Below are positions 11,639-31,187 of a DNA stretch of 33,316 nt, one piece after another. Source of the stretch: an uncultured delta proteobacterium (GTDB taxonomy: Bacteria; Myxococcota_A; Polyangia; Polyangiales; JADJMO01). The DNA lies in contig CAIXWQ010001082.1 in NCBI GenBank assembly GCA_903923175.1, positions 1-33,316 on the forward strand, read 5' to 3'. Position 1 is the stretch's first letter. Each line of letters starts with the position of its first letter. The notes under the pieces were generated by a model. That model was not told the origin of the DNA and did no database searches. It saw only the letters and a program-made list of their open reading frames with translations. The translations under genes and the position numbers were made by a program.

Positions 11639-11647
11639 TGCGATAAT
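11639..11647 (+). promoter_or_regulatory. Extended -10 promoter candidate for the Crp/Fnr gene
   Basis: TGCGATAAT has a TGn extension and a GATAAT -10 hexamer (11642-11647) in a locally AT-richer stretch. Transcription would begin near 11654, leaving a 5' leader of about 56 nt that contains GGAGAGG before the ATG at 11710. No good -35 is present, as is common for extended -10 promoters. The rest of 11440-11640 holds no gene that I can support. Confidence 0.5.
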
Positions 11648-11709
11648 TGCGGCTCAAGGGGAGGGTATCGAGCACCGGTCTGGCGAGCCCAGGCTGGAGA
11701 GGTATTGCC

Positions 11710-12429
11710 ATGCGAGCGGCCGAACCGAGCGACGCTTTGGGCGAGCTCCGCAAGATCCCCATCCTTGCGGACCTGCCCCCGCCAACATTCCAAGATATCG
11801 CCGCCAAGGCGCGATGGATTCGCGTCGATCACGAGAGGGCGATGGTCGTCGAGGGTGAGCCCATCGTCGCGATGCCCGTGCTGTTGCAGGGGCTCGTGAA
11901 GCTGGTCGCCGGCAGGACCCTGGTCGATCTCGTCCGAGGGCCGTGGCTCGCGCTTCCCTCCGCCGTCGTCGACGGCGCGCCGGCGGCGGTGTCCGTCGTC
12001 GCGCTCGGGCCTTGCCTGGTCGCGGTGCTCGACCGCGCGGCGTTCCTGGGCGCGGTCGGAGCCTCGGCGACGGCGGCGACCAAGCTGGCCGAGCTCGGCG
12101 CGCAGGAGGCTCGTTCGTATCTGCGTCGCCTCCCGGAGCTCGTGGGGGGCTCCGTCGAGGAGCGACTCACCACGCTGCTCGATCGGCTCGCGGAGCGGCA
12201 CGGCTCGCCGCTCGACGACGGCCGCTACATGGCGCTGCCGCTCCGTCGCTGCGACGTCGCGATGATGATCCACGCGACGACCGAGACGGTCTCGCGCACG
12301 CTCGCCGCCTGGGAACGTCAGGGGTGGCTGCGCTCGAACCGCTCGGGCTTCTGGTGGGCCTCGCGGCGCGCGCGTGAAGGCGGGCTCCCCTTGCCGCTGC
12401 GTCCCAAGAGCGATCGACCCGAGATCTGA
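11710..12429 (+). CDS. Crp/Fnr family transcriptional regulator
   Basis: A 239-residue protein. The ATG at 11710 has GGAGAGG 7-8 nt upstream and is preferred over a TTG at 11647. The N-terminal half (about 15-125) has the cyclic-nucleotide-binding beta-roll pattern (IPILADLPPPTFQDIAAKARW, then PIVAMPVLLQGLVKLVAGRTLVDL), but the canonical phosphate-binding GE...R/S/A cassette is not evident, so cNMP binding is uncertain. A dimerisation helix follows (~130-165). A winged HTH (about 175-225) has RRCDVAMMIHATTETVSRTLAAWERQGWL, the classic Crp recognition-helix region. No cysteine cluster for an Fe-S sensor is seen. It lies just upstream of the GH31 lipoprotein gene, which may be a target; that is an inference from position. 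Confidence 0.85.
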   Translation: MRAAEPSDALGELRKIPILADLPPPTFQDIAAKARWIRVDHERAMVVEGEPIVAMPVLLQGLVKLVAGRTLVDLVRGPWLALPSAVVDGAPAAVSVVALGPCLVAVLDRAAFLGAVGASATAATKLAELGAQEARSYLRRLPELVGGSVEERLTTLLDRLAERHGSPLDDGRYMALPLRRCDVAMMIHATTETVSRTLAAWERQGWLRSNRSGFWWASRRAREGGLPLPLRPKSDRPEI

Positions 12430-15754: not shown

Positions 15755-17353
15755 TCAGACCGGCACGACGCCGTGCTTCTTCCAGGGGCGCAGCGGCTTC
15801 TTCTGCTGCGCGAGCTCGAGCCCCCAGGCGATCGCGCGGCGCGTGTCGCGCGGATCGATGACGTCGTCGACGTGCCCCCAGCCGGCCGACTTGTAGATGT
15901 CGATGCGGCTGCGGATCTGCTCGAGGATCCCCTGCTTCACCTCGGGCGGCGGCTCCATGTCGCCGAAGAGCTTCTTCGCCGCGATGCCGAGCATCCCTTC
16001 GGCGCCCATCACGGAGATCTCCGCCGACGGCCACGCGACCAGCAGGTCCGGCTCATAGGCGCGGCCGCACATCACGTAGTAGCCCGCGCCGTAGCCCTTG
16101 CGGACCACCACGGTGATCTTCGGTACGGTCGCCGCGCTCATCACGTGCAGCATCTTGGCGCCGTGGCGGATGATGCCGGCGTGCTCGACCTTCGAGCCGA
16201 CCATGAAGCCGGGGACGTCTTGCAGGAAGATCAGCGGGATGTTGAACGCGTCGCAGATCTGGATGAAGTGCGCGCCCTTGTCGGCGCTGTCGTTCTCGAG
16301 GATGCCGCCGAGGTACATCGGCTGATTGGCCACGATTCCCACGCTGCGCCCGCCGATGCGCGCGAGGCACGTGATCAGCGAGCGCCCGAAGCGCGGCTTG
16401 ATGTCCAAGATCTCGCCGTGATCGACGAGCAGCTTGATCAGCTTGTACATGTCCCACGGCTTGCGGTTCGACTCGGGGAGCAGGTCGAGGATCTTCTCGT
16501 CGCGGCGCTCGATCGGATCGTCGCAGGGCACGATCGGCGGCAGCTCCTCGCAGTGCGAGGGGAAGTAGCCGAGGTACTTGCGCACGAGCGCGATGCAGTC
16601 GTCGTCGTTCGGGACCTCGACGTCGCCGACCCCGGAGACCTCGGAGTGGACCTTCGAGCCGCCGAGCTCCTGCTCGCCGATGTCCTGGCCGGTGACCGCC
16701 TTCACGAGCGCGGGCCCCGCGAGCGCGAGCGAGCCGATCTGCTTCACCATCGGCACGAAGTCGGCGAGGCCGGGGATGTACGCCGTGCCCGCGGCGCCGG
16801 GGCCGACCATCGCCGCGACCTGCGGCACCACGCCCGACATCGTGACCTGCTCGCGGAACAGGAAGCCGGTGCCGGCGAACTGCGAGATCGCGTCGGCGTG
16901 CGACGAGCCCGGGTCGATGCGCGCGCCGCCGCTGTCGATGAACCACACGATCGGGTGGCGGCCGGTGAGCGCCATCGAGCGCAGGCGCGTGACCTTCTCT
17001 TCGCCCGTGTAGCCGATGCTCCCGCCCTTCACGGTGAAGTCGTACGCCGCGGCGCAGGCGATGCGGCCGTTGACCTTGCCGAAGGCCGTGACCACGCCGT
17101 CGGCCGGCGGCTTGTCCTTGCCGTCGGGGCCCGCCGCGGGGCCCATCTGCGTGCCGTGCATGCCGATCTCGAAGTAGACGCCGTCGTCGAAGAACTTCTC
17201 GAGGCGCTCGCGACAGGTGAGCTTCCCGCGCGCGTGCTGCTTCGCGATCTTGTCCTCGCCGCCGAGGCGCTTGATGGTCGCGCGGCGCTCGTCGAGCTCC
17301 CTCACGAGGCGGCGCATCATGGACTCGGTCGTCGTGTCTTTGGCGTCGGACAT
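15755..17353 (-). CDS. Acyl-CoA carboxylase carboxyltransferase (beta) subunit
   Basis: A 532-residue biotin-dependent carboxyltransferase (Carboxyl_trans family) of the propionyl-, methylcrotonyl- or geranyl-CoA carboxylase beta-subunit type. It moves carboxylate from carboxybiotin to an acyl-CoA. The N-terminal region has KQHARGKLTCRERLEKFFDDG, then the first crotonase-like half with IVWFIDSGGARIDPGS and MGPGAAGTAYIPGLADF-type loops. The second half has PLIFLQDVPGFMVGSKVEHAGIIRHGAKML and VVRKGYGAGYYVMCG, which hold the oxyanion-hole glycines. The start at 17353 (MSDAKD) is chosen because GGAG lies 6 nt upstream; an ATG at 17359 sits directly on that SD. No biotin carboxylase/BCCP subunit is in the window. 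The promoter at 17376-17405 contains an 18-bp palindrome. The acyl specificity cannot be told by eye; leucine/isoprenoid or propionate catabolism would fit. Confidence 0.9.
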   Translation of the reverse strand: MSDAKDTTTESMMRRLVRELDERRATIKRLGGEDKIAKQHARGKLTCRERLEKFFDDGVYFEIGMHGTQMGPAAGPDGKDKPPADGVVTAFGKVNGRIACAAAYDFTVKGGSIGYTGEEKVTRLRSMALTGRHPIVWFIDSGGARIDPGSSHADAISQFAGTGFLFREQVTMSGVVPQVAAMVGPGAAGTAYIPGLADFVPMVKQIGSLALAGPALVKAVTGQDIGEQELGGSKVHSEVSGVGDVEVPNDDDCIALVRKYLGYFPSHCEELPPIVPCDDPIERRDEKILDLLPESNRKPWDMYKLIKLLVDHGEILDIKPRFGRSLITCLARIGGRSVGIVANQPMYLGGILENDSADKGAHFIQICDAFNIPLIFLQDVPGFMVGSKVEHAGIIRHGAKMLHVMSAATVPKITVVVRKGYGAGYYVMCGRAYEPDLLVAWPSAEISVMGAEGMLGIAAKKLFGDMEPPPEVKQGILEQIRSRIDIYKSAGWGHVDDVIDPRDTRRAIAWGLELAQQKKPLRPWKKHGVVPV

Positions 17354-17375
17354 CGGCATCTCCGCGGGGTGAGGT

Positions 17376-17405
17376 AATATACTTCGCACACGAAACGTTT
17401 CGTGT
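17376..17405 (-). promoter_or_regulatory. Promoter with palindromic operator for the acyl-CoA carboxylase gene
   Basis: Reading the minus strand, a perfect 18-bp palindrome acacgaaacgtttcgtgt (17388-17405) is followed after 6 nt by the -10-like hexamer TATATT (17381-17376). The start codon lies at 17353. The AT-rich patch stands out in the GC-rich background. The palindrome covers the -35 and spacer, the usual place for a repressor operator. The GAAAC/GTTTC core recalls operators of TetR-family fatty-acid regulators such as PsrA, and also LacI-type sites; the regulator itself is not in the window. Confidence 0.7.
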
Positions 17406-17520
17406 CGATGCCCTCTGCGCCGCCGCCGCGTGCGGCTTTCGCGGCCGCGGATTCCTCGGTCGCAGCTCCGGTGCGCTGCCGACGGCCTCCCGGAACTCGC
17501 GGTGACGTCGCAGGTCGCTC

Positions 17521-17552: not shown

Positions 17553-18221
17553 ATGGCTGGAGTCGAGGTAGGTGGCGGCGGCGGTGGGCGGCGCTCGCTC
17601 GATCAGGAGATCAACATGATCCCCTTCATCGATCTGTTGATGGTCACGATCTCGTTTCTGCTGATCACCGCGGTCTGGACGAGCATGGGGCGCATCGACG
17701 CGCACGCGACGCTGCCCGCCAAAGAAGGAGCCGCGCCCGCGAAGCCGAAGAAGGAGCCCGCGGTGCTCCACGTCCGCGCGAACGTGCGTGAGTCCAAGTT
17801 CCTCCTGCAGTGGCAGCAAGGGACCAAGGTCGAGGACGTCGCGAGCGTCGACCTGGAAGAGGACGCGAGCGGCCGCTACGCGAAGCTCGAGGCCGCGATC
17901 GCGAAGGCGTACGTCGCGGGGCGCGACGCCGAGCACGGCCTCGTTGGCGACGAGGTCTCGTGGCGCGCGGGCGACGAGGCCGAGCATGCGCGGCGCAACA
18001 CCGTGATCCTCCACGTCGACAACGCGTGGAAGCTGCGCGACGTGGTGCGCGTGATGGACGCGATCGCGACGCCGAAGCGCCTCGCCTGCGACGCGCCCGC
18101 GCCGGAGTGCTGCGGGGTGGCGTCAGGCGTGAGCGGGGCGAAGGGCGCGTCTCCCGACGGCTGCGTGCGCGCGGCGGCGACGGTGCCCGCGTTCGACGTC
18201 GTAATGGCCTCCGCGAGCTGA
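17553..18221 (+). CDS. ExbD/TolR-like protein with long Cys-containing C-terminus
   Basis: A 222-residue protein resembling the ExbD/TolR stator subunits that, with ExbB/TolQ, use the proton gradient to energise outer-membrane transport. Residues 14-47 carry the family signature: EINMIPFIDLLMVTISFLLITAVW, one transmembrane helix with the proton-path Asp27. The periplasmic domain (~60-180) includes HVRANVRESKFLLQW and RRNTVILHVDNAWKLRDVVRVMDA, matching the usual ExbD helix-strand order. It is longer than typical ExbD (~140 residues) because of an insertion around EVSWRAGDEAEHA and a tail of about 40 residues with four cysteines (LACDAPAPECCG, PDGC). SD AGGAGG lies 6 nt before the ATG. No ExbB, TonB or Pal gene is nearby, so its partner is unknown. 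Confidence 0.8.
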   Translation: MAGVEVGGGGGGRRSLDQEINMIPFIDLLMVTISFLLITAVWTSMGRIDAHATLPAKEGAAPAKPKKEPAVLHVRANVRESKFLLQWQQGTKVEDVASVDLEEDASGRYAKLEAAIAKAYVAGRDAEHGLVGDEVSWRAGDEAEHARRNTVILHVDNAWKLRDVVRVMDAIATPKRLACDAPAPECCGVASGVSGAKGASPDGCVRAAATVPAFDVVMASAS

Positions 18222-18348
18222 GCGATCGCACCGCGAGCTCGCTCTGCAAGAGCGCGCACGTGCGCTGAGCAATGAATCACCGTTCAGCCCGCGCACCTGC
18301 TCCCACAAACGCGCTCTAGCCTTGTTTTCTCGCTCCTTGGTGGCAGTT

Positions 18349-18366
18349 CCTTTCGTACGCGAAAGG
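18349..18366 (+). promoter_or_regulatory. Dyad upstream of the multifunctional beta-oxidation gene
   Basis: Inverted arms CCTTTCG (18349-18355) and CGAAAGG (18360-18366) are separated by TACG. A -10-like TACGCT follows at 18371-18376. The arrangement resembles an operator in a promoter, but no good -35 is seen. The rest of 18222-18348 shows nothing I can support. Confidence 0.4.
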
Positions 18367-21679: not shown

Positions 21680-22858
21680 ATGGGTCGCAAGGTCAACGTG
21701 CTCGGCGTCGGGATGGTGAAGTTCGGCAAGCCCGGCGCCAGTGACGACTACAACGTGATGGCGTCCGGCGCGATCAAGGGCGCGATCGCGGACTCCGGCG
21801 TGAAGTTCGACGAGATCGAGCAGGCGTACGCGGGCTACGTCTACGGCGACAGCACGTGCGGGCAGCGCGCCGTGTACGAGGTCGGCCTCTCGGGCATCCC
21901 CGTCTTCAACGTGAACAACAACTGCTCGACCGGCTCGTCGGCGCTGTTCCTCGGCCGCCAGGCGATCGAGGGGGGCTTGGCCGAGTGCGTGCTCGTCGTC
22001 GGCTTCGAGAAGATGGAGAAGGGGGCGCTCGGCTCGAAGTTCACCGATCGCACCAACCCGCTCGACAAGCACGCCGAGGTGATGAGCCGCGTGCAGGGCT
22101 TCAACCAGGCGCCGCCCGCCGCGCAGATGTTCGGCGGCGCGGGGCGCGAGTACCGCTGGCGCTGGGGGACCAAGCGCGAGACCTTCGGCAAGATCAGCGA
22201 GAAGGCGCGCAAGCATGCGAGCAACAACCCGCTCGCGGTGTTCAACCAGGTCCTCTCGCTCGACGAGATCATGAAGAGCGAGGAGGTCTTCGACCCGCTC
22301 ACGCGCTACCAGTGCTGCCCGCCGACGTGCGGCGCGGCGGCCGCGATCCTCTGCTCGGACGACTTCGCCAAACGGCACGGCGTCTCGAACGCCGTGTACA
22401 TCGCGGCGCAGTCGATGACGACCGACTACGCCTCGAGCTTCGGCGACTCGATGATCAAGATGATCGGCTACGACATGGCCGCCGCCGCCGCGAAGCAGGT
22501 CTACGAGAAGTCGGGCATCGGGCCGGAGGGGGTGCAGGTCGTCGAGCTGCACGACTGCTTCACCGCCAACGAGCTGCTCACCTACGAAGCGCTCGGTCTC
22601 TGCAAGGAAGGCGAGGCCGAGAAGTTCATCGAGGCCGGCGACAACACCTACGGCGGCAAGTACGTCACCAACCCGTCGGGCGGCCTGCTCTCCAAGGGGC
22701 ACCCGCTCGGCGCGACGGGCCTCGCGCAGTGCGCGGAGCTCGTGTGGCAGCTTCGCGGCCAGGCCGACAAGCGCCAGGTGCCGAACGCGAAGGTCGCGCT
22801 CCAGCACAACCTCGGCCTCGGCGGCGCGTGCGTCGTGACGATGTATCGCCGCGACTGA
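21680..22858 (+). CDS. SCPx-type thiolase / lipid-transfer protein
   Basis: A 392-residue thiolase of the sterol-carrier-protein-x type, expected to cleave 3-ketoacyl-CoA with CoA as the last step of beta-oxidation. Nucleophilic Cys82 lies in [13 protein letters not shown], and H291 in [13 protein letters not shown] is characteristic of SCPx thiolases. H341 is in [15 protein letters not shown] and the C-terminus has [18 protein letters not shown]. It ends without an SCP2 domain, which animal SCPx carries in the same chain; here SCP2 modules are on the upstream gene. SD GAGGTGA lies about 6 nt before the ATG. With the preceding gene it supplies hydratase, dehydrogenase and thiolase steps; an acyl-CoA dehydrogenase or oxidase and CoA ligase are not in the window. 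Confidence 0.92.
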
Positions 22859-30365: not shown

Positions 30366-30518
30366 GGCTGCGCGAGTGACCGCGGCGACCGTGGTGACGG
30401 CGGTGACCGCGCCTCGGTGGACCGAGCCCCGAGGGGGAGCGCCCCGCGAAGCCGACGCTCGCGAAGCTGCCAGGTGACGACGCGCGATCGCGCCTCGTGC
30501 TACCGTTTCGACCCTGCG

Positions 30519-31187
30519 ATGGAAGATCTGATCGCCCCCGACGCGCGGCTCCTCGAGCGCTTCGGCCGTCGCTTCGCCGCCGGCGAGGTCCTCTTTCGCG
30601 AGGGCGAGCCCGGCCAAGAGGCATTCCTGCTGCATGAGGGGCGCGTCCGGCTGCTCAAGCGCGTCCGCACGGTCGAGCGCTCGCTCGTCGTGCTGAAGCC
30701 GGGCGATCTCTTCGGCGAGTCGGCGCTCATCCCTGGCTCGGCGCGCTCCTCGAGCGCCGTCGCCCTGAGCGAAGGGGTCGCCCTCGCGCTGGCCGAGTCG
30801 ACCTTCCGCGCGCTCCTCCAGAACAACGCTGCCATCGCGAGCCGGGTGCTCCAGCAGCTGGTGCGGCGCCTGCGCGAGCTCGAGGACCAGATCGAGTTCA
30901 CGATGATCCGCGACACCCAGTCGAAGGTCGTCTCGGCGCTCTTGAAGCTCGCCAGCGCGAGCACCGGGACCGGCGGGGCGGTCGTGGTGTCTCCGCTCGA
31001 GCTCTCCTCGCGGGTCGGCCTCGACGTCGACACCGTCAAGCGAACGGTCCAGCAGCTACGCGATGGCGAATACGTCCGGATTGCGGACGAGAAGCTCGAG
31101 ATCCCGGACGTCGAGGCGCTGCGGAAGCTCTACGGTTTGCTGGGCGTGAAGGACGAATTGCGCGGCAACCCTGACGATCAAGCCTGA
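30519..31187 (+). CDS. Crp/Fnr family transcriptional regulator
   Basis: A 222-residue regulator. The cNMP-binding-type beta-roll (about 12-120) shows GEVLFREGEPGQEAFLLHEGRVRLLKRV and then LKPGDLFGESALIPGSARSSSAVAL. This is a complete phosphate-binding cassette: GES with R and SS following. Cyclic-nucleotide or related ligand binding is thus plausible, unlike the other Crp-like protein at 11710. The dimer helix (about 110-145) and winged HTH (about 155-205; LELSSRVGLDVDTVKRTVQQLRDGEYVRI) follow. The ATG at 30519 has no clear SD, and TACCGT lies 12 nt before it. The upstream open frame to 30417 is Arg-rich and not protein-like. The RodZ-like gene begins 90 bp downstream, with a palindrome between. 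Confidence 0.88.
   Translation: MEDLIAPDARLLERFGRRFAAGEVLFREGEPGQEAFLLHEGRVRLLKRVRTVERSLVVLKPGDLFGESALIPGSARSSSAVALSEGVALALAESTFRALLQNNAAIASRVLQQLVRRLRELEDQIEFTMIRDTQSKVVSALLKLASASTGTGGAVVVSPLELSSRVGLDVDTVKRTVQQLRDGEYVRIADEKLEIPDVEALRKLYGLLGVKDELRGNPDDQA

Follow-up and report, generated by a model that had tools for sequence, protein, structure and literature searches.

The window, by which we mean the whole stretch of 33,316 nucleotides analysed here, contains a perfect 18-bp palindrome in front of a gene for a subunit of an acyl-CoA carboxylase. Symmetry of this kind in a promoter raises the question of whether a regulator binds there and, if so, which regulator, at which bases and together with which other genes. 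In the preliminary description the core of the palindrome was likened to operators of TetR- or LacI-type (PsrA-like) regulators of fatty or branched-chain acid catabolism. The palindrome finding is real, but it is out of register and was given the wrong regulator family. The features of the locus are the following:

15755-17359, minus strand: carboxyltransferase subunit (PccB-like) of a biotin-dependent acyl-CoA carboxylase, 534 aa, recognised by Pfam PF01039 and PDB sequence matches; the gene reads leftwards from an ATG at 17357-17359
17376-17381, minus strand: TATATT, adjoining the palindrome, between it and the carboxyltransferase start codon
17379-17384, minus strand: AAGTAT, putative element corresponding in position to the -10-like AARYAT found in relatives and sharing bases with the end of operator A
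17382-17395, minus strand: putative operator A of the carboxyltransferase promoter, TTTCGTGTGCGAAG as read on this strand, overlapping half of the palindrome
17388-17405, no strand: perfect 18-bp palindrome, ACACGAAACGTTTCGTGT, whose end at 17388-17395 is part of operator A
17403-17408, minus strand: TCGACA, putative element at the place of the -35-like TTGNNN of relatives in genus g24; the same-genus genome G001 reads the same
17553-18221, plus strand: ExbD-like gene, between both operator regions
18273-18286, no strand: operator-like repeat B, TGAATCACCGTTCA, in the MFE-2 promoter, consensus CTGAAT-N4-ATTCAG
18351-18364, plus strand: second putative operator A, TTTCGTACGCGAAA, 110 bp ahead of the MFE-2 start codon
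18475-21558, plus strand: MFE-2-like multifunctional beta-oxidation protein, with SDR dehydrogenase, hydratase 2 and SCP2 domains by domain matches
21680-22858, plus strand: SCP-x-like thiolase downstream of MFE-2, above the cutoff of the NCBIfam lipid-transfer protein subfamily NF006102

The palindrome itself, the neighbouring TATATT and the divergent arrangement with the ExbD-like gene were all found as first described. By sequence, the nearest solved structures of the carboxyltransferase are propionyl-CoA carboxylase beta chains (the query began at 17362, one codon ahead of the ATG, and thus carried one extra residue), and the protein scored under the cutoff for all seven NCBIfam families that it matched. 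From the carboxyltransferase, MFE-2 and the thiolase one may guess at a pathway for the oxidation of branched or bulky acyl-CoAs yielding propionyl-CoA. The window also holds two CRP/FNR-type regulator genes (cNMP-binding and Crp-like HTH domains), at 11647-12429 and 30417-31187, and a relative of the former adjoins the carboxyltransferase in G001 (cluster 11).

The palindrome is less remarkable than had been claimed. There are two perfect 18-bp palindromes in the window (72% GC) and 1.32 on average in 100 dinucleotide shuffles of it, so that this length is not rare if composition is ignored; palindromes with at least 10 A/T bases are rare and arose 0.01 times per shuffle. A scan of the window's own genome for the 18-mer with up to two mismatches returned zero additional copies, and two further places appeared at three mismatches. 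Among 56 genomes, four contained it with up to two mismatches, the own genome counted, and the matches in the three others were weak. Its best match in 13 other carboxyltransferase promoters bearing the shorter repeat A had 3 to 8 mismatches (3 in G001), and the remainder of the palindrome, 17396-17405, is without conservation in the orthologous promoters. The lack of a second close copy and the weak matches elsewhere rule out the 18-mer as a genome-wide motif.

The unit that is conserved is a 14-bp inverted repeat, TTTCG-YRYR-CGAAA, referred to here as A, with the wider consensus GATATTTCGYAYRCGAAACATC in a logo of 94 upstream regions of a MarR-family gene. Within the family, TTTCG-N4-CGAAA is common to the carboxyltransferase promoters of the other four genomes, G001-G004 (with one mismatch in G003). 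Sites with at most one mismatch to TTTCGYRYRCGAAA number 14 in the window's genome (G000), where the reversed-pattern control gave 0, and 9, 10, 10 and 24 in the four other genomes of this family (f1) vs 4, 1, 1 and 4 for the reversed pattern. Eight of the 14 own-genome sites precede acyl-CoA genes or the MarR gene:

Window: A sites at the carboxyltransferase and at MFE-2
Contig C489: two A sites, at an FAH-like gene and an acyl-CoA dehydrogenase
Contigs C533 and C1246: A sites at acyl-CoA dehydrogenases
Contig C1208: A site 21 bp ahead of the start of a biotin carboxylase
Contig C1123: A site at the MarR gene

The biotin carboxylase of C1208 is presumably the partner subunit of the carboxyltransferase in the window. 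The remaining six sites comprise four within predicted genes and two (C700, C1018) at called gene starts. The additional copies and the orthologous conservation that had been expected of the 18-mer thus belong to the overlapping 14-mer at 17382-17395. A regulator site very probably does lie in the carboxyltransferase promoter, as was first proposed, in the register 17382-17395 and not 17388-17405; the link to acyl-CoA catabolism, including the neighbouring beta-oxidation gene, also stands, as the operator set includes MFE-2. Of 105 sites, 26 had an extra CGAA half-site in the nine bases upstream of A, vs 4.2 with flank letters permuted, an excess that is confounded with a -10-like GAATA sequence and with the relatedness of the genomes; such half-sites may be the reason for the perfect palindrome of the window.

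The MarR gene deserves closer attention. In the window's genome it heads a MarR-BKACE-enoyl-CoA hydratase cluster on another contig (G000:C1123, locus L183), and the 14-mer in its own promoter, TTTCGTGTGCGAAG at C1123:8160-8173, is identical to that of the carboxyltransferase. A palindromic operator in the gene's own promoter is usual for the MarR family. The protein belongs to this family by PF01047 (61.0 bits vs a cutoff of 24.6), as do those of L052 and L054. In G001 and G004, likewise, exact A sites immediately precede a MarR gene that has BKACE behind it. Two NCBIfam MarR families share the fold with the orthologue in G002, which scored 65.6 bits for HpaR and 44.7 bits for FabT; the curated cutoffs of 121.2 and 200, respectively, rule out either equivalog, and FabT is, by its model name, concerned with control of fatty acid synthesis, whereas the present set is catabolic. 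A single-sequence AlphaFold model of the own MarR protein had a mean pLDDT of 49.3 and was set aside.

Where the sites lie and how they are associated with the MarR gene was computed across the order, which we take to be Polyangiales and in which named records include Sorangium, Polyangium, Minicystis and Labilithrix. Of 183 genomes in this order, 100 have the MarR orthologue by a search with an alignment of five proteins. If two mismatches are allowed, A is present within the 300 bp upstream of the gene in 94 of 100 regions, and in 79 if only one is, shuffles giving 1.2 and 0.1, respectively; the regions come from 99 of these genomes, G116 contributing a weak second copy as well, with G112 left out and G099 having only 61 bp. 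In a phylum sample of 377 genomes, 42 of the 44 MarR matches at E up to 1e-45 fell within the order, and eleven distant MarR genes of other phyla lacked an A site, their closest matches differing at 3 to 6 positions. MarR also has two distant relatives in Pyxidicoccus (L350, L351; 42% identity); upstream of these a TTGACT element is followed by TTCGYTATACGAAA, which is related to A and may be an operator that has diverged outside this order.

Exact 16-mer sites were found in 33 of 100 genomes with MarR vs 8 of 83 without (Fisher 1.5e-4), and a control pattern in 9 of 100 and 9 of 83. Outside family f1, 36 of 57 exact sites were examined, picked by genome and not by gene: in our reading, 19 stand in front of a gene for MarR, the carboxyltransferase, MFE-2, an acyl-CoA dehydrogenase, a thiolase or a biotin carboxylase, and 17 have no such gene beside them. 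Gene starts were assigned by a simple script that made several genes too long, and some "within-gene" exact sites are likely upstream of the true start. Two exact sites within the family, L055:6120 (G004) and L058:6092 (G002), are located between a histidine-phosphatase gene and the opposite strand, which carries a MerR gene; at L055 an amidohydrolase gene comes first on that strand. They are candidates either for membership in the A set or for a second regulator.

The carboxyltransferase is not always separated from the regulator gene. Several lineages (L185, L190, L193, L195) have an operon MarR-BKACE-enoyl-CoA hydratase-carboxyltransferase with A ahead of MarR, whereas in the window's genome MarR, BKACE and the hydratase are elsewhere (L183) and the carboxyltransferase lies in the window. 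In 36 of the 77 genomes with a carboxyltransferase, the gene had its own A in 14 of 15 detached cases, in 0 of 18 cases in the operon and in 0 of 3 cases with no MarR found; in the single detached miss, G119, the sequence upstream is only 72 bp long. The contrast between detached and in-operon genes gives a Fisher value of 1.8e-8, kinship of the genomes ignored. "In operon" means here that the starts of MarR and of the carboxyltransferase, in this order, are approximately 2.1-2.2 kb apart (for genes on the minus strand, the low ends differ by 3.2-3.4 kb). This line was drawn from the distance table after viewing, and gene order was checked in part of the 18; the detached cases nearest to it are G130, with 3.0 kb and both genes on the same strand, and G002, with 2.8 kb and opposite strands. 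Detachment was seen in about two lineages (family f1 and genus g24), which leaves few independent events.

Of 61 informative genomes with MarR, 44 have A at MFE-2 with at most two mismatches, vs 0 of 18 without MarR. The former figure is made up of three sets (25 of 30, 19 of 29 and 0 of 2), and all 30 genomes of the first are in the MarR match list. A was absent from MFE-2 in the MarR-bearing genomes of families f6 (0 of 4) and f5 (0 of 4), and the MFE-2 contrast is therefore largely one between families.

Could another regulator bind A, the MarR gene being merely one of its targets? A TetR/PsrA-like protein, or the MerR protein encoded beside two sites, might do so, as the promoter of a regulator gene can itself be bound by a different regulator and exact A sites occur at the MerR-gene locus in both G002 and G004. 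We nevertheless regard such an arrangement as unlikely. That 94 of 100 regions upstream of MarR have A argues against it and disfavours MerR (L055, L058) in particular; the exact sites are concentrated in MarR-bearing genomes, and in genomes without MarR A is missing at three of three carboxyltransferases and 18 of 18 MFE-2 genes. PsrA, the TetR repressor of beta-oxidation genes in Pseudomonas, has the motif C/GAAAC-N4-GTTTG/C (PMC5722320). The half-sites of PsrA stand in the opposite order to those of TTTCG-N4-CGAAA and its motif requires a 4-base spacer, which is missing from GAAACGTTTC in the palindrome; the site is thus not a PsrA-like operator. No TetR gene was present among the flanking genes scanned near the sites. 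The evidence favours instead the MarR-family protein encoded on G000:C1123.

It is very improbable that the whole 18-bp palindrome is the operator of a species-specific regulator. The palindrome is perfect and A/T-rich for this genome, and the excess of CGAA would fit if the extra half-sites were used, but that excess is confounded as described above. An 18-bp operator agrees neither with the own genome, which has no second copy within two mismatches, nor with the 13 orthologous promoters, which differ from the palindrome at 3 to 8 positions. The palindrome rather joins part of A to a non-conserved outer half, which might contribute a weak third half-site at most. Hardly credible at all is the notion that the sites are functionless chance palindromes: although a window of such make-up should hold 1.3 perfect 18-bp palindromes by chance when A/T content is disregarded, A occurs before MarR, carboxyltransferase and MFE-2 far above shuffles, and the reversed-pattern controls are low. 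The genomes are related, so that the counts are not independent, lineage confounding stays in all these comparisons, and the evidence is wholly computational.

The reading that we consider likely is that A is the operator of one self-regulating MarR-family repressor controlling a set of genes for acyl-CoA catabolism. Its targets would be the MarR operon, the carboxyltransferase, MFE-2 with the thiolase, the biotin carboxylase of C1208 and the acyl-CoA dehydrogenases of C489, C533 and C1246. In the MarR promoters a TTGAC-like element is found 21 to 25 bp upstream of A (logo over 94 regions), which places A on the core promoter. In eight of the 14 detached carboxyltransferase promoters, all of genus g24, TTGNNN is followed after exactly 7 nt by A, whose far end carries AARYAT; as the two elements are 18 nt apart, A fills the spacer. 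A consensus scan returned no sigma-70 promoter at the carboxyltransferase promoter of the window. A MarR dimer sitting on A would block RNA polymerase, and since A lies on the core promoter, occlusion by the bound dimer is the simplest reading. Release from A might follow when an acyl-CoA of the pathway binds the dimer, by analogy with CouR of Rhodococcus jostii RHA1, a MarR repressor of p-hydroxycinnamate catabolism that is released by the pathway acyl-CoA, p-coumaroyl-CoA (PMC4737184). An inverted-repeat operator over promoter elements and release by an acyl-CoA are features of CouR, and both are proposed here. CouR serves an aromatic acyl-CoA pathway, whereas the present system has many scattered targets, and the two are likened by description and not by sequence or operator.

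The MFE-2 promoter of the window contains, besides A, the unrelated repeat B. Its core, TGAA-N6-TTCA, has 30 distinct matches in 2.46 Mb of redundant loci, compared with 3 to 21 when the spacing is set to any other value between 0 and 11. Among 79 MFE-2 promoters (80 sampled, G119 left out with 2 bp upstream), 42 have A only, 18 B only, two both and 17 neither, with at most two mismatches each; 0.2 B sites were expected from shuffles, and some B calls are weak (e.g., G070, G083). The mutual exclusion of A and B gives a Fisher value of 2.4e-6, a figure again confounded with lineage. Only the window's genome and G001 have both, and the elements are arranged alike in the two, as MFE-2, A, B, A, carboxyltransferase. 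In G001 (L053:1541-1830) MFE-2 and the carboxyltransferase are directly divergent with no ExbD-like gene between them; this gene was therefore either gained in the window's genome or lost in G001.

Further B sites lie upstream of MFE-2 and acyl-CoA dehydrogenases (L389:3497, L418-L426, L457-L464, L144:5071, L145:5327, L146:2172), and B adjoins A at the acyl-CoA dehydrogenases of L144 to L146. Among nine genes adjoining MFE-2 or close to B sites that were surveyed for a linked regulator of B (L389, L390, L457, L144, L145), none had a TetR or other repressor domain; an ECF sigma factor gene, one of these nine, is approximately 4.5 kb from B in L145. A CRP/FNR-type regulator such as those encoded in the window is a candidate for the regulator of B. 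It is possible, if somewhat doubtful, that the window has captured a regulatory handover, in which MFE-2 moves between operator A of MarR and operator B of another regulator. If so, the genomes with both sites would represent a redundant intermediate through which a gene swaps its transcription factor without losing control, and the handover would run alongside a carboxyltransferase that left the MarR operon with its own copy of A.

Among the matches listed in a search of the open-access literature, there was no description of the present regulon, which would be new and would have an unusual evolutionary side story at MFE-2. The carboxyltransferase inside the operon or outside it with its own A, together with MFE-2 promoters having A, B, both or neither, makes up a natural series on the gain, retention and exchange of operators. 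For the order of Sorangium and Polyangium, large soil myxobacteria whose polyketide products draw on acyl-CoA precursors, a regulator of acyl-CoA catabolism and its operator can be proposed.
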